64,000 nucleotides of DNA, from contig CALXXX010000027.1 of the NCBI GenBank assembly GCA_944392795.1, forward strand, positions 1-64,000, read 5' to 3'. The notes beneath the pieces are model-generated. The model saw only the letters and a list, made by a program, of their open reading frames with translations, did no database searches and was not told where the DNA came from. Below are positions 28,287 through 63,755 of the stretch, piece after piece. The stretch comes from an uncultured Alphaproteobacteria bacterium. Lineage in GTDB: Bacteria; Pseudomonadota; Alphaproteobacteria; CAAHEQ01; UBA3637. Made by a program: the position numbers and the translations under genes. Position 1 is the stretch's first letter, and every line of letters starts with the position of its first letter.

Positions 28287-29533
28287 GCGTCAATCCATGG
28301 TTTCAAAATTGTGATAACACGATCAAGAACAGCTGTTTCTCCTGAGGCAAAATTCCTTCCTTTTTCTGAAATTTTCTGTCGATCAATATGCTTATTCATT
28401 AAAACATCCAAAGAAACTTCTAAACCATGCACATCTGGAACTTCTATCAATCCCTCTGCGGCTTTAGCACGCTCTACAATTTCTCTGAAATTAAATGCAT
28501 ACGGACCTATCAACGTACAAGCGCCTGTCCGCATTGGCTCCAACATATTCTGCCCACCAAAAGGAACTAAGGAGCCGCCCACAAAAACAAGAGGAGCTAA
28601 ACGATAAAATAATCCCATTTCACCCATCGTATCTCCTAAATAAATATCTGCATTAACATCTTCTCCGCGAGAACGACGATGAACCGTCAGCCCTTTTTTT
28701 ATCAACTGACGCTCGATCTCATCACAGCGGTTTGGATGTCGTGGAACAAGAACTGTTAAAAGAGAAGGATATTTCGTTTTTAACCGAATATGCATATCAC
28801 CTATTTGTTCTTCTTCATTACTATGCGTGGAACCTGCTACCCATACCGGCCGATCACCTATCGCATTCCGAATCGAAACCAGTTCTTCTTCATCAATCGG
28901 AGGCGGAACAGCTGCAAATTTGATATTACCAACACACGCTGCTTGCGGAGAACCTAAAACTGTCAATCGACGAGCATCTTCTTCCGTTTGTCCTAAAGTT
29001 AACACAAAACATCTCAATAACGGACGAATAAACCAGAGAGCCCTTTTCCACCGACGAAAAGATTTATCCGATATCCGTCCATTTAATAAAATAAGAGGCA
29101 TTTTTCGCCGATGTGCTTCCAACAACATATTCGGCCAAAAATCTGATTCAATAAAAAAACCAACATCCGGATGAAAATGCTTAAAAAAACGACGAACATA
29201 AACAGGATAATCTACAGGAATATATTGATGAAACGCTCCTTTCGGAAGTCGTTTTTCCATAATCGCCGCGCTTGTCACTGTCCCGGAAGTGACCAAAACT
29301 TGATGTCCCTTTTCAACTAACGCCTCAATTAACGGCATATGAGATAAACACTCACCAACACTCGCTCCATGTATCCATAGCAGTCGCCCTGTCGGCCTTT
29401 TTCTTGTATAAATGCCTAAACGTTCCGTGCCTCTGACAGCATCTTCTTTCCCTTTATATCGCCGCCATGCTAAAAAAACTTTCAAAAATGGGTACATCGC
29501 ATAGCTAAGTGCCCGGTAAGCTTCAAGAATCAT
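28283..29533 (-). CDS. waaA: 3-deoxy-D-manno-octulosonic acid transferase
   Basis: 416 residues. An N-terminal membrane anchor is followed by WIHGASVGECLS with the catalytic Glu, and the C-terminal CMP-Kdo binding half includes VWVAGSTHSNEEE and FVGGSLVPFGGQNMLEP. It transfers Kdo to lipid IVA, the step before LpxL. It heads the waaA-lpxK-lpxL unit. Confidence 0.96.
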   Translation of the reverse strand: MILEAYRALSYAMYPFLKVFLAWRRYKGKEDAVRGTERLGIYTRKRPTGRLLWIHGASVGECLSHMPLIEALVEKGHQVLVTSGTVTSAAIMEKRLPKGAFHQYIPVDYPVYVRRFFKHFHPDVGFFIESDFWPNMLLEAHRRKMPLILLNGRISDKSFRRWKRALWFIRPLLRCFVLTLGQTEEDARRLTVLGSPQAACVGNIKFAAVPPPIDEEELVSIRNAIGDRPVWVAGSTHSNEEEQIGDMHIRLKTKYPSLLTVLVPRHPNRCDEIERQLIKKGLTVHRRSRGEDVNADIYLGDTMGEMGLFYRLAPLVFVGGSLVPFGGQNMLEPMRTGACTLIGPYAFNFREIVERAKAAEGLIEVPDVHGLEVSLDVLMNKHIDRQKISEKGRNFASGETAVLDRVITILKPWIDA

Positions 29534-29637
29534 TGTATTCCCGGTCCTTTCTGTTCTTTTTTAAAAAAAGTCTCGCCTTTTTTCTTTTTATCATACATAC
29601 TCATTATAAAAAAGCAAGTAATTTGAATGGGGAAGAC

Positions 29638-30261
29638 ATGTTGCTGTTATTTTGTCAAAATCCGCTGCTCAAACAAACCTTTCAAAATATCATCGACCCT
29701 TTTAAAGGCCTTGTGATTGAAAATGAAGCAGATTTTTGGGAAAAATTACCAGATGCAAAACTTATCGTCATTGATGAAAATGAAAAGCTTTATTATAAAG
29801 CAAAAGAAAAAAACTTAACACAAACCTTTTTGTTCTTAGGGCAAAAAGAACCAACAGAATTTGAAGAAGTACATTTTTTAAAAAAACCATTCTCTGCGTT
29901 TCAGCTGAAACAGCAATTAGAGTTATTGTTCGCATTTGTCAAACGCGGTTTAACTTTATCTTTTGAAACTGTTGATTTCCGCTTTAATGGCGCCAATCGA
30001 ACATTAACGCATATCCAAACACAAACTGAAGTTCGATTAACTGAAAAAGAAGCAGAACTCATACAATATCTTTTTGATAACAGACACCGTATCGTCCCAA
30101 AAGATGAGTTACTCAAACAAATCTTTGGTTATCATAAAGATGTTGAAACACATACCTTGGAAACGCATATCTATAAGCTACGACAAAAAATGGGTGCGGC
30201 GAATGAAACTTTTTTATTAACAATTGATGGCGGATATCAACTTCAGGGTATTTTAGAATAA
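29638..30261 (+). CDS. PhoB/OmpR-type winged-helix regulator with pseudo-receiver
   Basis: 207 residues from the ATG at 29638 (GGGGAAG upstream). The C-terminal 95 residues are a clear OmpR/PhoB winged helix (LTEKEAELIQYLFDNRHRIV, THTLETHIYKLRQKM, IDGGYQL). The N-terminal part is receiver-like but short: it keeps an Asp (LIVIDENE) and the KKPF lysine motif but lacks the acidic pair normally at the end of the first strand (here LLLFCQNP). It is probably not controlled by phosphorylation. The gene diverges from waaA and has no partner kinase nearby. Confidence 0.8.
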   Translation: MLLLFCQNPLLKQTFQNIIDPFKGLVIENEADFWEKLPDAKLIVIDENEKLYYKAKEKNLTQTFLFLGQKEPTEFEEVHFLKKPFSAFQLKQQLELLFAFVKRGLTLSFETVDFRFNGANRTLTHIQTQTEVRLTEKEAELIQYLFDNRHRIVPKDELLKQIFGYHKDVETHTLETHIYKLRQKMGAANETFLLTIDGGYQLQGILE

Positions 30262-30268
30262 AAAAAAA

Positions 30269-30289
30269 CGCCCCGAAGGGCGCTTTTTT
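30269..30289. terminator. terminator between converging genes
   Basis: CGCCC-CGAA-GGGCG is flanked by an A-tract before and six T residues after. It overlaps the stop codon of the fadL gene and serves the winged-helix gene, and possibly both. Confidence 0.75.
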
Positions 30290-31538
30290 AAAACTCATAT
30301 TGAGCTTGAAGACCTATCAAATTGGCCTGCATGCTATACTTCGCGTCTAAATAAGAGCCGGAAGCCAAATTATGTGTTTTTGATGCTTTCACAAACATAT
30401 GAGCATATCCCAAATCAATTGTCGCATTTTTATATTTATAAGAAACACCAACAGAAGCCCACCAACGATTATTGTCAGGAATACGCGCCGTACGATATTC
30501 TGCGTTTTTGACTGGAGATTCATCATAAGAAAGACCTAATCTAAATGTCCAATTATCATCATGATAATAGTCCATACCAACACCTAACATCCAAACATTT
30601 TCCCATTTTTCTTTTGTCGAACTGACACCATATTGAAAGTTTTCTGAATAAATATCTAACTGATCAAAGCGACTCCACTTTGTCCATTTGGCCGAAGCAG
30701 CCAAACCTATTTTATCAATCCGATGATAAGCAGATATTAAAACGTGCTCGGGCAATGTTATTTTAGCACGACCAACAGTTGTCCCGTTCTGGAATGGAAC
30801 ACCAGGAAGAGACGGCATAGCAGATCCTTCAACCAAATGCTTTCCTTTTAAATGATGCGTCACTTTAGAACGATATGAAACGCCAAAACGAGTATCTTTC
30901 AAAGGTTCATACATCAGACCTAAGGTATATCCGTAAGCCCAATCATCTCCTTCAACTTTATTAAAACCACCGCCAGCAGCAGCAGGTAAATCATTTGTTA
31001 ATTTTGCATCTGCTCGTTCAAACAGAACTGAACCACCTAAGGTCAATTGAGGCATAATCTTATATGAAACAGTTGGCGCAAAATCCATAACGCCTATGTA
31101 AGATTTTAAAGCGTGTGTACGTCCAAACCACTCTTCATTATAAACGGTGGATAAACCAAAAGGAGCATATGCACCAAAGCCAAAATCTAATTTATCATTT
31201 ATTTTATATTGAGTAAAAAAATGTGGGATCCAATTCCTTAAACGAATATTTCCTTCTTCTCCTTGGTTAATACCACCATTGATAGTTTCTCCTTGCACAT
31301 CCGCCTTAATCATAACAAGTGTCATTCCGGCTTGTGCTCCTGACTTTTTCAAGCTCATACCCGCTGGATTAAAAGCAATTGCTGAATAGTCATCACCAAC
31401 AACACCTGCACCATTAAAGGCTCGACCTAAATTAGCCGCACTATACTCTGACAGTTGAAAACCGGCTGAAAACGCTGGAACAGAACACATCGTTAAACAA
31501 CCAACCAAAAAAGCTTTTCCTAAAAATTTACAAGTCAT
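30288..31538 (-). CDS. FadL-family outer membrane transporter
   Basis: 416 residues. A signal peptide (FLVGCLTMCSVPAFSA) precedes GFQLSEYSAANLGRAFNGAG, the N-terminal hatch of FadL/TodX proteins, and the YSAIAFNPAGM motif. The body alternates short amphipathic strands and ends in Phe (LQAQYEF), as outer membrane beta-barrels do. It is expected to import hydrophobic compounds such as long-chain fatty acids. GAGGAAGTAAA precedes the ATG. It diverges from the DsbA-like gene across a 208-bp gap. Confidence 0.92.
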   Translation of the reverse strand: MTCKFLGKAFLVGCLTMCSVPAFSAGFQLSEYSAANLGRAFNGAGVVGDDYSAIAFNPAGMSLKKSGAQAGMTLVMIKADVQGETINGGINQGEEGNIRLRNWIPHFFTQYKINDKLDFGFGAYAPFGLSTVYNEEWFGRTHALKSYIGVMDFAPTVSYKIMPQLTLGGSVLFERADAKLTNDLPAAAGGGFNKVEGDDWAYGYTLGLMYEPLKDTRFGVSYRSKVTHHLKGKHLVEGSAMPSLPGVPFQNGTTVGRAKITLPEHVLISAYHRIDKIGLAASAKWTKWSRFDQLDIYSENFQYGVSSTKEKWENVWMLGVGMDYYHDDNWTFRLGLSYDESPVKNAEYRTARIPDNNRWWASVGVSYKYKNATIDLGYAHMFVKASKTHNLASGSYLDAKYSMQANLIGLQAQYEF

Positions 31539-31746
31539 TTTACTTCCTCTTTTATGACAAAAGTAATGCTTTTATATGCAGGTTTGTCTTTTTCTTCAAC
31601 TTTTTTTTATCCAAAAAAACGTTTTGTCACATTTTTGACTTATAAGTCTATTTATTAAAAAAAAATTAAAAAAGGGGCTTGCCTTCCAATCAAAAGTATG
31701 TCAAGTTGATGAACGCTAAATGTTTTTTACAAAAGGAGATTAAATT

Positions 31747-32670
31747 ATGGTGACTAAAAAAAATAAAAAGCCGGTTCAAAAAACAGCTCATGTTTCAGCC
31801 GCTGTTCAAAATATCCCGGCTCAAAAAGAAGAATGCTCTTGCGAAAAAGATTGCAAGTGTGGATGTGATTGCGGATGTAAATGCGGAAAACTATTACCTT
31901 TCTTTGGTATGATTATTATCGCTTTATCAATCTTGGCTACACCATTCTTACGTTCTTGTCCTTTAGGTGTAAAAGCTTCTAAAGCTGATAAACAAACACT
32001 TTCCGAAAATGTTATTCGCGACTTTATTAAGGCTAATCCAAAAGTTATTTTAGATTCTGTCAACAGCTATTATCAAAAACAACAAGGTTCTCAAGCTGGT
32101 AGAAAAGCGCCTCCTAAAAAAGCAGACAGTAAAATGATTGCTGAAATTTTAGCAGACAAAACAAATACCGTGCTTGGTAATCCAAAAGGAACTTTTGTTA
32201 TCATTGAATTCTTTGATTATCAATGTGGCTACTGCAAAATGATGAATAAGAAGTTAGCAGAAGCGATTAAAAAGAGTGATAACATTCGTTGGGTTTTAAT
32301 GGATAATCCTATTTTCGGTGAAAAATCTGAAACGATTGCCCGCTATGCAATGGCTGCGGATAAACAAGGTAAATTCGCTGAATATCATGAAGCTTTAGGC
32401 GATAACAAAGATATGTCCGAAGCCGGTTTAATTGCTTTAGGTAAAAAGTTAGGATTAAATACAGATAAGTTAACAAAAGATGCTAACTCTAAAGAATTAA
32501 AAGATAAGCTTTTAAAAACTCGTGAATACACGAAAGAATTAAATTTAAGCGGTGTTCCGATGTTTATTATCGATGGTGATGTTCAACCAGGCGCTTTCCA
32601 AGACGCTCAATTGGAAGAATACATTAAAAAAGCCAACGATATGAAAAAGACAAAAAAAGCTAAGAAATAA
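31747..32670 (+). CDS. DsbA-like thiol oxidoreductase with cytoplasmic cysteine cluster
   Basis: 307 residues. The first 50 contain CSCEKDCKCGCDCGCKCGK, nine cysteines in 19 residues like a metallothionein, then one transmembrane helix (LLPFFGMIIIALSILATPFL). The periplasmic part has a DSBA fold with active site CGYC at about residue 160 and a cis-proline loop SGVPMF. The family forms or shuffles disulfides in exported proteins; homologues with an N-terminal helical segment before the DsbA fold are common in alphaproteobacteria, but the Cys cluster is unusual. The next gene encodes a cysteine-rich secreted protein, a likely client. AAAGGAGATTAAATT precedes the ATG. Confidence 0.85.
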   Translation: MVTKKNKKPVQKTAHVSAAVQNIPAQKEECSCEKDCKCGCDCGCKCGKLLPFFGMIIIALSILATPFLRSCPLGVKASKADKQTLSENVIRDFIKANPKVILDSVNSYYQKQQGSQAGRKAPPKKADSKMIAEILADKTNTVLGNPKGTFVIIEFFDYQCGYCKMMNKKLAEAIKKSDNIRWVLMDNPIFGEKSETIARYAMAADKQGKFAEYHEALGDNKDMSEAGLIALGKKLGLNTDKLTKDANSKELKDKLLKTREYTKELNLSGVPMFIIDGDVQPGAFQDAQLEEYIKKANDMKKTKKAKK

Positions 32671-32690
32671 TTGCTTTGAGATATCATGAA

Positions 32691-32714
32691 AAAGCTCCTC
32701 GTTTGAGGAGCTTT
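32691..32714 (+). terminator. terminator of DsbA-like gene
   Basis: AAAGCTCCTC-GTTT-GAGGAGCTTT followed by further T residues is a perfect 10-bp stem shortly after the stop codon. It makes the following cysteine-rich gene depend on its own promoter. Confidence 0.88.
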
Positions 32715-32735
32715 TTTTAAAGCTAAAAAAACATC

Positions 32736-32765
32736 TAGACAAGTCAACTATGAATTTGTTATGCT
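32736..32765 (+). promoter_or_regulatory. possible promoter of the poly-C gene
   Basis: TAGACA (32736-32741), an 18-bp spacer and TATGCT (32760-32765) are a reasonable -35/-10 pair 30 bp before the ATG at 32795. Placed by eye only. Confidence 0.35.
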
Positions 32766-32816
32766 TATTTTACAAACAAAATAAGGAGTCTCAGATGTTC
32801 ATTTTTAACAAATTTA

Positions 32817-32829
32817 CCCCCCCCCCCCC
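32817..32829 (+). repeat. C13 homopolymer tract
   Basis: Thirteen consecutive C residues in an AT-rich region, placed within the signal-peptide codons of the cysteine-rich gene. Lengths of 9, 12 or 15 give the full-length frame; the other two frames meet stops within about 10 codons (32840 and 32848). Confidence 0.9.
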
Positions 32830-32906
32830 ATGTTTTATCTAATCTTTTAATATATTTAATACTTTTCTCCTCTTTTTGCTTAACCGCAAACGCAAAAACA
32901 GTTAAC

Positions 32907-32982
32907 CGACAAGCTTATAAAGTCTGTAAAACGAATGAAAAAGCTTATTGGAATGGCTCTTCCGCTCAATGCTGTGATACAA
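32907..32982 (+). repeat. conserved 76-bp 5' module, copy 1
   Basis: 71 of 76 bases match 63216-63291; the first 33 are identical. It encodes the start of the mature cysteine-rich proteins, after which the two genes diverge sharply. Confidence 0.85.
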
Positions 32983-33555
32983 CGACCCATAAACTCGTCA
33001 AAAATTATACAAACGGCATTGGTGAAAACGGTTATGCCTGCTGTCAATTCGAAGAAGAGAACAAAACTTATGAATATTATGGAGAATTACGCACTGATTC
33101 CCAATACACTGTTATCGGAGCAGTTAATGGTTCATGCTGCGGTGGATATACACGAGCAAACTCAATATTACCTACCTGGGATAATATTCCAAGCAGAAAC
33201 CAAACAATAACTTACACCATTAGGAACAATAGTAATATTTACTATTGTGGAATTTTACAAAATGGTCAAGAGGACCCAGCAGGATATAGCATAGCTTCAG
33301 CTTATTTTGGAAATTCAAAATATTGTTACGGGTATTCTTTCTCTGTCGGCGGTGAAATTTATATACAAACCTGTTGCACGGCTGAACGAGGTAATCCAAA
33401 GAATGGAGAGTGCATTCAGGGGATACCTGAAAATGGAAATTTAGGAGATCCTTTTTTGCCTGACTAACTAGCAGTTCTTTCTGTTCCATGAGTAAATCAA
33501 AAGTAAAGTAAATAACAATAAACTATCATTGTTATCTATCAATACATTATTTTCT

Positions 33556-33591
33556 AAATGAAAAGGCCTTGATATCAAGGCCTTTTCATTT
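33556..33591. terminator. 36-bp perfect palindrome, bidirectional terminator
   Basis: Centred on GATATC, with arms AAATGAAAAGGCCTT/AAGGCCTTTTCATTT. It overlaps the rne stop codon and faces the end of the cysteine-rich gene, so it can end both transcripts. Confidence 0.8.
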
Positions 33592-35842
33592 AACTCATCA
33601 GCTTGTTCCACCAGCCACCCTTTTTAGGTTGTACCGGCTCCGATACAGTTTCTTCAACAGAAGGCATTTCAGACACCTTATCCGTCTCAGTTTTTTTCTT
33701 TCGAGGACGACGAACAGCTTCTTTTTTCGTCTTAGCTGGCTCTACAGCAACCACGGCTTGCGGTTTTTCCTCAATAACAGCAACCTCCTTTGGTTCCACT
33801 TTTTGAACAGCCGCTTTATGACTATCATATAAAACCATTGCTTCTTGATGAACAACAGTGAACTTATCTTCTCCACTTGTCATTGGCATTTCTGAATGTT
33901 CTCGACGATCCCGACGGAAACGATTTCTCTGATACCGACGCCGTGAACGATTTTTTATATTCTCTTGTGTTTGTTGCACTTCCTCTGTTTTTTCTTCATC
34001 AAGCGCAGCTTCAGGCGCTTCAACAAAGACGGTTTTCTCGGTTTTTTCAGAATTTTCGGTGGCAAACCGTTCTGATTGGTCACTGTTCTGAGCATTGTCT
34101 CGACGTCCTCTGTCTCGACGTTTTTTGTCTTTGCGTCGACGGCTGTCTTTAATTTCGGCCAAATTTTCTGTTTTGGCGGCGGTAACGACTTTTTCTCCGC
34201 TACCTTTGCTAAAACGTTCAAGACGAAAGTCAGTCGGGTTTTGCATGGACCCGTCTCCTTCCACCTTAATCGAGACATCATGCCGTGTTTCGATTTGACT
34301 TAAGTGTGAACGTTTGGCATTCAACACATACAAAGCCACCTGCAATGGAAGGGTTATCGTTAATTCGGAAGAAGGATGTTGTATCCCAGCCTCTTCCAAT
34401 ACACGCAAAGCATGCATCGCACAAGATTCAACAGAACGAACAATTCCGGTCCCTTGACACATCGGACAGGTATGATGCCCCGTTTCTAAAAAACTGGAGT
34501 GTAAACGTTGACGAGAAATTTCCATCAAACCAAAACCGCTTAAACGGCTCATTTGAACACGTGCACGATCTTTCTTTAATGCTTCCTTCATCCGTCGTTC
34601 TACAGCATGATTATTGCGCATCTCATCCATATCAATAAAATCGACAACGATTAAACCAGCTAAATCCCTTAATCTTAATTGACGAGCCACTTCATCTGCT
34701 GCTTCTAAGTTCGTTTTAAGTGCAGTCTCTTCTATATTGCGTTCTCGAGTGGCACGACCAGAGTTCACATCAATAGCTACTAAAGCTTCAGCTTGATCAA
34801 TAACCAAATAACCACCAGATTTCAAATAAACATTTTTATTATTCATTTCTTCCAGCTGATTTTCGATATTATAAGCTTGAAACAATGGAACATCCTCTTT
34901 ATACTGTTTGATTTTTTTAAGCTGGCGAGGCATCAACAACTTAACAAATGCCCGTGTAGATTTATAAGCAGCTTCTCCTTCAATCAAAACCTCTGCTATT
35001 TCATCACTGAACGCATCACGTAAAGTCCGTTTAATTAAATTACCTTCTTCGTGGATAAGTGTTGGTGCCTTAGACTCTAAAGTTTTATCACGAATTTGCA
35101 TCCATGTTTTAATCAAATATTCATAATCGCGCTTAATTTCAGTTTTTGTACGTTCACGACCGGCTGTTCGAATAATAACCGACATTCCTTCTGGCACAGG
35201 TAAACTTTCCACAATTGTTTTCAACTTCCGTCGATCAGCTGCATTTGAAATTTTCCGAGAAACACCTCCGCCATTCGCATTATTCGGCATCAAAACGCTG
35301 TAACGTCCGGCTAAGGATAAGTAGGTCGTTAAAGCGGCTCCTTTATTTCCTCGTTCTTCTTTTGTGATTTGAACTAAAACGATTTGATTATGGTGAATAA
35401 CCTCTTGTATTTTATATTTACGCAGCGCATAAAAACGAGGACGATAAACATCATCGCTTTCCGATTCGGAAACAGTTTCAACTTCTTGAACAGCATCTTC
35501 ACCTTCTTCGACAGGAGTTGCTGTCTGAACAGGAGGTTCCTCTTCTTCTGGTTTTCGTTCCATCAGCTCTTTTTTCAGAGCTTCACGATCCGCGACAGGA
35601 ATCTGATAATAATCAGGGTGAATTTCGTTAAAAGCTAAAAAGCCATGTCGATTTCCACCATAATCAACGAAAGCGGCCTGAAGTGACGGTTCAACCCGCA
35701 CAATTTTAGCCAGATAAATATTCCCTTTAAGCTGTTTTTTAGTGGATGTTTCAACGTCCAATTCCTCCAGACGTTGCTCATCCAAAACGACCACACGCGT
35801 CTCTTCGGGATGTGTGGCATCGATAAGCATTTTCTTTGACAT
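33590..35842 (-). CDS. rne: ribonuclease E
   Basis: 750 residues from the ATG at 35842 (MSKKMLIDATHPEE), the usual alphaproteobacterial start, with TTTGGAG upstream; a longer reading from 35863 is unlikely. There is an S1 domain (about 35-90, interrupted by an acidic insert EEEEPP..EEGEDA as in relatives), catalytic Asp residues in IDVNSG and VVDFIDMDEM, and the zinc-link CPMCQGTG. The C-terminal 250 residues are Arg/Lys/Glu rich and disordered, the presumed degradosome scaffold. It processes rRNA and tRNA and degrades mRNA. Its 284-bp upstream gap may hold an autoregulatory leader. Confidence 0.95.
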   Translation of the reverse strand: MSKKMLIDATHPEETRVVVLDEQRLEELDVETSTKKQLKGNIYLAKIVRVEPSLQAAFVDYGGNRHGFLAFNEIHPDYYQIPVADREALKKELMERKPEEEEPPVQTATPVEEGEDAVQEVETVSESESDDVYRPRFYALRKYKIQEVIHHNQIVLVQITKEERGNKGAALTTYLSLAGRYSVLMPNNANGGGVSRKISNAADRRKLKTIVESLPVPEGMSVIIRTAGRERTKTEIKRDYEYLIKTWMQIRDKTLESKAPTLIHEEGNLIKRTLRDAFSDEIAEVLIEGEAAYKSTRAFVKLLMPRQLKKIKQYKEDVPLFQAYNIENQLEEMNNKNVYLKSGGYLVIDQAEALVAIDVNSGRATRERNIEETALKTNLEAADEVARQLRLRDLAGLIVVDFIDMDEMRNNHAVERRMKEALKKDRARVQMSRLSGFGLMEISRQRLHSSFLETGHHTCPMCQGTGIVRSVESCAMHALRVLEEAGIQHPSSELTITLPLQVALYVLNAKRSHLSQIETRHDVSIKVEGDGSMQNPTDFRLERFSKGSGEKVVTAAKTENLAEIKDSRRRKDKKRRDRGRRDNAQNSDQSERFATENSEKTEKTVFVEAPEAALDEEKTEEVQQTQENIKNRSRRRYQRNRFRRDRREHSEMPMTSGEDKFTVVHQEAMVLYDSHKAAVQKVEPKEVAVIEEKPQAVVAVEPAKTKKEAVRRPRKKKTETDKVSEMPSVEETVSEPVQPKKGGWWNKLMS

Positions 35843-36126
35843 ATAAACTCCAAACTTTTCCATTTTGACGTCGAAACGGCGTCTTTCAGAACACGCATAG
35901 GAAGAGTCTTTCTCATAAAGACCCGGATGATAAGTTGTTTTATTTTTCTTTGAAAATCCATTTTTTCCTACGGTTCAATAAACTTTTTTGGGTAAGCGAT
36001 TCCGTTTTTGTTTTTTATAAAAATGAACCGTTGACCTAAATTCATCAAAAAACATCATAAACGACTTTTCAAAAAAGAACAACTATATTATGATGTGTTT
36101 ATTATTTTTTTTAGAAAAGAAAACAT

Positions 36127-63128: not shown

Positions 63129-63755
63129 ATGTTTACAAACCAACTTTCTTTGATTTATAAAATTTTCATTATTCTTTTCTTCTTTTCTGTTCCTCTTTAT
63201 GCAGAAACGATCCAACGACAAGCTTATAAAGTCTGTAAAACGAATGAAGAAGCTTATTGGAACGGTTCTTCCGCTCAATGTTGCGATACAAAAACACAAT
63301 ACACAGGAGATCCTCCATATGTTATAGGTGTTTCTCTGGATAATATCCCTTATACACAAAAGTTAGTAAAAAACTATATAACTGGTCAAGACACGACTTC
63401 TTATGCTTGTTGTCCAAATTTTGCAGATGCCTCAAAACCTTATGATTACGAAGCAGATTTGTGGGGAGAAACTGTACGCAACTATCAATTAGCCGGTTCT
63501 GTTAATGGAAGTTGCTGTGGCGTTCATACAACTTCATCTTTAGATTTTGAAAAAGATGGATATAGCCTTGTTTACACATCTTCTGCTACTATTTATCAAA
63601 ATGGCGGAGTTTATTATTGTGCTATTAGTCGTCTTTCTGAACGAGATGGCGCGGTTTACGAGAGCGCTTCCAAAGTTTGTACATATTATAATGGTTCAAA
63701 AGTCGGATGCACCTGCAGCACCAGTGGAGATCCTATGAATGGGACACCTTGCTAG
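63129..63755 (+). CDS. cysteine-rich secreted protein, paralogue of the poly-C gene
   Basis: 208 residues. A signal peptide (IFIILFFFSVPLYA, cleavage before ETIQ) precedes RQAYKVCKTNEEAYWNGSS and AQCCD, nearly identical to the gene at 32795. Later shared motifs are KLVKNY, ACC, VNGSCCG and YYC. About 12 cysteines, arranged in pairs, suggest a disulfide-stabilised exterior protein. Here the signal peptide has no homopolymer and the frame is intact. AAGGAGAAAATT precedes the ATG. It ends TPC. Function unknown. Confidence 0.82.
   Translation: MFTNQLSLIYKIFIILFFFSVPLYAETIQRQAYKVCKTNEEAYWNGSSAQCCDTKTQYTGDPPYVIGVSLDNIPYTQKLVKNYITGQDTTSYACCPNFADASKPYDYEADLWGETVRNYQLAGSVNGSCCGVHTTSSLDFEKDGYSLVYTSSATIYQNGGVYYCAISRLSERDGAVYESASKVCTYYNGSKVGCTCSTSGDPMNGTPC
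63216..63291 (+). repeat. conserved 76-bp 5' module, copy 2
   Basis: Matches 32907-32982 at 71 of 76 positions; flanking coding sequence diverges on both sides. Confidence 0.85.

Follow-up and report, generated by a model that had tools for sequence, protein, structure and literature searches.

Does a run of 13 cytosines, placed a few codons into a gene, act as an ON/OFF switch for a secreted protein, and does it act alone or as one of a set? The locus lies in a stretch of 64,000 nucleotides (the window) from contig 27 of an alphaproteobacterial genome of 1.29 Mb in 41 contigs (G000). On the plus strand, a promoter-like site, TAGACA-N18-TATGCT (32736-32765, predicted from a consensus match only), is followed by the Shine-Dalgarno sequence AAGGAG (32783-32788), by the start codon and a 22-nt pre-tract leader encoding MFIFNKFT (32795-32816), and by the C13 tract (32817-32829), the proposed phase-variation switch. 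At this tract length, the frame of ATG 32795 ends at the TAA at 32840, after 15 codons; from the RBS to this stop, the layout reproduces to the base what a first-pass annotation of the same DNA had described. It had also been claimed that a tract with one C fewer, or of C9 or C15, would open a 223-codon frame encoding a signal peptide followed by a mature protein rich in Cys, and the translation agrees. At C9, C12 or C15 the leader continues into one long frame of 222-224 codons (223 at C12), which at C12 reads MFIFNKFTPPPH and contains the remainder of the signal peptide (HVLSNLLIYLILFSSFCLTANA, 32829-32894), a hydrophobic stretch ending in ANA. The mature Cys-rich domain of 190 aa and the stop follow (32895-33467), with a 5' part conserved to about 33045 and a variable 3' part; the putative cleavage site, ANA/K, was placed by eye. 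The C14 version stops after 18 codons, so that, as had been proposed, both other phases are closed early.

The tract is exceptional in its surroundings, being the longest C run in the window (the runner-up has 7), where overlapping C8 words occur 6 times against 0.44 expected from shuffles. In the terms of the first criterion for SSR contingency loci, an over-long repeat is placed here where its length alters the frame. The 212-codon frame behind it is a real, non-random coding frame, as none of 3000 dinucleotide shuffles contained any frame open for at least 205 codons, and in the terms of the second criterion the ORF is intact in a single phase and conserved as a protein. The lack of a useful internal start, another of the earlier claims, is borne out: past the tract, the ON frame contains a single ATG, GTG or TTG codon, TTG 33456, and consequently no expression is expected from the assembled allele, barring slippage. 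An ATG situated 67 nt 5' of the tract was considered as an alternative start and discarded, because it sits in the promoter-like block and the RBS belongs to ATG 32795. The OFF state of the window gene is that of one assembler consensus, and not a population measurement.

The predicted mature protein contains many Cys residues, several of them as CC pairs, and an alignment of 11 family members reveals invariant Cys, Trp and Gly positions. Protein matches were found in 18 stretches of the same genome. The paralogue that had been announced at position 63129 is real and tract-free; located on the plus strand (63129-63755, 208 aa), it shares 70% identity with the window protein in the conserved N-terminal segment and 42% beyond. 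Since tract-free paralogues, including this one, align on both sides of the tract without the TPPP segment, the tract looks like an element added to the leader. Pfam and NCBIfam searches with the window protein gave nothing above cut-off, and a solved relative was not found by sequence in the PDB. AlphaFold predicts an all-beta mature protein with moderate confidence (pLDDT 74, pTM 0.63), for which a PDB fold search returned no match at E<=0.001. The signal peptide and the resemblance to the Cys-rich regions of prepilin-type proteins suggest a surface location. The upstream neighbour, on the plus strand, encodes a DsbA-like thiol oxidoreductase (31747-32670; Pfam DSBA, 6e-19) that is syntenic in the sister species G001, and a functional link between this enzyme and a disulfide-rich secreted protein may be conjectured.

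The window tract is not the only one of its kind in the genome, where about 14 C stretches reach a length of eight or more. In at least eight cases the stretch closely follows an ATG, which almost always has an RBS, and precedes a Cys-rich or prepilin-like ORF. Cys-rich paralogues stand behind tracts on contigs C8, C17, C19 and C25 and at two places on contig C27, and type IV prepilin leaders (e.g., GRSMIEMLGVLVIIGVLSIGAL) stand behind those on contigs C9 and C22. The latter two loci display Gly at -1, Glu at +5 and the hydrophobic helix (G/RSMIEMLGVL...) of type IV prepilins, with a Pfam N_methyl E-value of 0.0011, just short of the curated cut-off. Moreover, a single 5' block, made up of the promoter-like site, the RBS and the leader, in which AAGGAG is kept, is common to six loci (the window gene, those on contigs C17, C25 and C7, the second one on C27, and the prepilin locus on C9), and the G001 orthologue of the window gene retains it too.

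Two further arrangements of poly-C were observed in the genus. In its three species, a C13-C15 tract whose length varies among species, and which may sit in a leader or in a promoter, is conserved upstream of an ORF containing MDALFWHDLVERC (L044, at G000:C34:49446-49458; L125; L132; L149). Elsewhere, poly-C is flanked by the inverted-repeat arms AAAAAAGGAAC and GTTCCTTTTTT in a terminator-like, genus-conserved structure (L032, at G000:C4:40922-40933; L036, at C11:58-72; L117; L155).

The genomes compared here are all assemblies, in which tract lengths are imperfect, and the window gene might simply carry a miscounted tract, the real one being fixed at an in-frame length that leaves the gene always on. 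The length of a 13-base homopolymer is uncertain in a short-read assembly, and Illumina indels in long homopolymers have been documented (PMC8808543). Besides, 10 of the 14 C tracts of the window's genome are less than 400 bp from contig ends (chance probability about 1e-13; contigs C4, C7, C8, C9, C11, C17, C22, C25, C26 and C27); assemblies thus break at tracts. These breaks fit mixtures of lengths, and equally a shared repeat combined with poor sequencing through poly-C. As the sequence beyond some contig-end tracts, for instance on contig C25, resembles sequencing error, ON/OFF calls at contig ends are not trustworthy. The window tract, in contrast, lies in the interior of its contig; its flanks are clean, and so is the syntenic orthologue. 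Mixed lengths recur over many loci and genomes. An artefact also gives no account of long C runs behind an RBS and an ATG (0 matches with the control pattern), and a C12 tract would itself be expected to be unstable. An error of this kind is therefore an improbable explanation of the locus.

Comparison of alleles argues in favour of a switch. Among 34 tract genes for Cys-rich and prepilin proteins, with tracts mostly of C9-C15, 11 are in frame (ON) and 23 out of frame (OFF) in the assemblies, so that the ON share is near the one-third that free drift of tract length would give; all seven scorable tract genes of the window's own genome are OFF. The comparison of tract lengths in related genomes, proposed with the first description of the locus, was made on assemblies of sister species, not strains. 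In G001, the orthologue at the corresponding position, within a syntenic region that spans 29415-33045 of the window, carries C12 and is in frame (ON), versus C13 (OFF) in the window, so that, in the terms of the third SSR criterion, length differs between orthologous alleles. Other orthologue pairs differ as well (C14/C12 and C12/C10).

It could be argued that the window gene is a frameshifted relic whose job is done by the tract-free paralogue at 63129. The assembled allele is out of frame, there are paralogues without a tract, and one member of the family, L080 in the congener G002, has an extra stop shortly past the tract. Decay of this sort should have left other inactivating mutations in the orthologues, which were looked for as the earlier reading advised; the orthologues are instead intact, with dN/dS values of 0.38-0.52, and 212 codons without a stop follow the tract of the window gene. 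The synonymous signal is modest and weak in single pairs; when the pairs are pooled, the bias towards synonymous substitutions reaches p = 1e-5, dominated by the most diverged pair. The C12/C10 pair is out of frame in both species and even so retains 215 intact codons with 97% identity. Locus after locus, the tract is the sole lesion, and one third of the loci are in frame. Mixed frames, unequal lengths and intact, synonymous-biased ORFs match contingency loci, not decayed pseudogenes, and a relic is barely credible.

Intact OFF frames would also be accounted for if RNA polymerase or the ribosome slipped on the C run, as long homopolymers permit, giving some protein at every length, in which case the tract would tune the level of expression instead of switching it. 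Unlike programmed slippage sites, these tracts do not conserve their length among paralogues or orthologues, and transcriptional slippage has been documented mostly on A/T runs. It is thus very unlikely that slippage during expression is what the tract serves.

The window locus is, with high probability, a member of a multi-locus set of genes made phase variable by slipped-strand mispairing in poly-C. The first-pass annotation had proposed phase variation by tract slippage, and this remains the best explanation of a multigene family with the same tract position, mixed frames, intact OFF ORFs and a C12 orthologue in the ON state; the case is much stronger over the whole genome than at a single locus. 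According to this model, replication slippage would change the length of the C tract; at C12 (or C9 or C15), ribosomes that initiate at 32795 would read across the tract and on into the signal peptide, yielding a secreted Cys-rich protein, and at C13 or C14 translation would end within 15-18 codons. The tract would be read as proline codons in the n-region of the signal peptide, or ahead of the prepilin cleavage site, and the leader bearing it would be removed by signal peptidase, or by prepilin peptidase in the pilin-type members. Because the tract would lie in a cleaved leader, in-frame changes of length would spare the mature protein, making the tract a pure switch that is free to drift. 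With one cassette of promoter, RBS, leader and tract at several loci, the secreted Cys-rich and pilin-like proteins of a population could be ON or OFF in many combinations, and might play a role in interactions with a host or with phages.

The pattern RBS-ATG-C9 is present in 11 of the 43 genomes of the family, and its reversed control in none (0/43). The sister species G001 has the same tract design, and the congener G002 (1.3 Mb) carries 60 C tracts of at least nine bases (L063-L092 and L132-L161), many of them apparently intergenic; one of its tracts (L147) stands before a glycosyltransferase-like ORF. Across 385 genomes sampled over the class the pattern is rare and mostly limited to single loci, against 4 control matches. 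In another alphaproteobacterial family (G053 and G194; L240-L244), several copies of RBS-ATG-leader-C9 precede prepilin-like leaders; the four cassettes of G053 are all C9 and all in the same out-of-frame phase, which speaks against fast drift. Loss of mismatch repair was considered as the cause of tract accumulation and rejected: MutS (PF00488) is encoded by G000, by G001 and by the tract-rich G017, and was not found in the tract-rich G002 nor in the tract-poor G004 and G032, so its presence does not follow tract richness and no simple link emerges. Regarding the Cys-rich family, it is concentrated in the window's genus; two other genera gave weaker matches. A scan of genome contigs with the single window protein returned nothing, and a scan with the family alignment gave matches only in bins of uncultured Alphaproteobacteria, which are presumably of gut origin. 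Four tract genes (L067, L099, L100 and L118) encode proteins of 426-513 aa that begin like prepilins and end in a long region rich in Cys, and these possibly represent a link between the pilin and the Cys-rich classes.

The window locus also appears to be mosaic. Between 32900 and 33045, in the 5' coding part, identity to G001 is 97%, compared with 86% for the syntenic block as a whole; past 33045 this identity ends, and the downstream neighbours differ, being a gene of the RNase E/G family in the window (33590-35863) and an elongation-factor-like GTPase, named by eye from its sequence, in G001. High 5' identity, its abrupt end and the different neighbours point to recombination by which 3' halves would have been exchanged downstream of a conserved 5' cassette. 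A DNA-level search of G001 and G002 for the 3' half of the window gene, together with the adjacent RNase E gene, found no donor. In four genomes of three genera, poly-G occupies the spacer between the -35 and -10 elements (TTGAC..Gn..TATAA; control, 0), and one such promoter precedes a 723-aa prepilin-type ORF, others preceding unknown or ankyrin-like proteins. Promoter-type tracts of the form TTGAC-Gn-TATGNTATAA were recorded at L229-L239 and L245-L251 (e.g., G002:C32:11390-11418). The pattern is absent from the window's genome, including the window locus. It is conceivable, at somewhat less than even chances, that all this makes up a combined system of phase and antigenic variation in non-pathogenic Alphaproteobacteria, in which a cassette placed before two unrelated exported families recombines among loci and swaps 3' halves, slippage sets the expressed combination, and a parallel class of poly-G promoter spacers acts on related prepilin genes.

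The kind of mechanism proposed here is already known. In Neisseria, the pilC tract sits in the signal-peptide region, and the opa genes encode related exported proteins, each with its own leader tract, which results in combinatorial expression. The genes pilC1 and pilC2 contain a G/C tract in the reading frame, and the repeat of opa is CTCTT (PMC5953494). As in pilC1/pilC2, whose product is exported and pilus-associated, a long G/C homopolymer within the reading frame would turn translation ON or OFF at the window locus. Neither Pfam nor NCBIfam nor the PDB gave a match of the window protein to PilC/PilY1, and hence the gene would work like pilC phase variation and yet does not seem to be a PilC; unlike pilC, with no detected homology, the present system belongs to Alphaproteobacteria and joins two target families to one 5' cassette, and the genomes of some relatives each contain dozens of such loci. 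It resembles opa in being a family of exported proteins with individual leader tracts, and differs in that the repeat is mononucleotide instead of pentanucleotide and the proteins are unrelated. Contingency genes with G/C homopolymers also form the phasomes of Campylobacter and Helicobacter (PMC6321876, PMC2823697), with which the present set shares many G/C homopolymers in an AT-rich genome and surface-related targets; those targets are mostly surface-modification genes, whereas here they are mostly secreted Cys-rich proteins and prepilins. The porA promoter of Neisseria contains poly-G (PMC3639595), like the -35/-10 spacers of some relatives, a class separate from the window locus. A multi-locus homopolymer phasome in Alphaproteobacteria was not found in the open-licence literature, the closest case being recombination of BadA in Bartonella. 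What is new is the lineage, the Cys-rich and prepilin targets, and the cassette common to both. ORF callers would miss or truncate tract genes in metagenome assemblies, so the repertoire of secreted proteins and pilins of this lineage is probably undercounted. A way of switching genes that has been described mainly in Neisseria and other pathogens would therefore also appear in an unstudied lineage, for which small uncultured alphaproteobacterial genomes, one of them with 60 long C tracts and many proposed switches before exported proteins, offer a direct test case.
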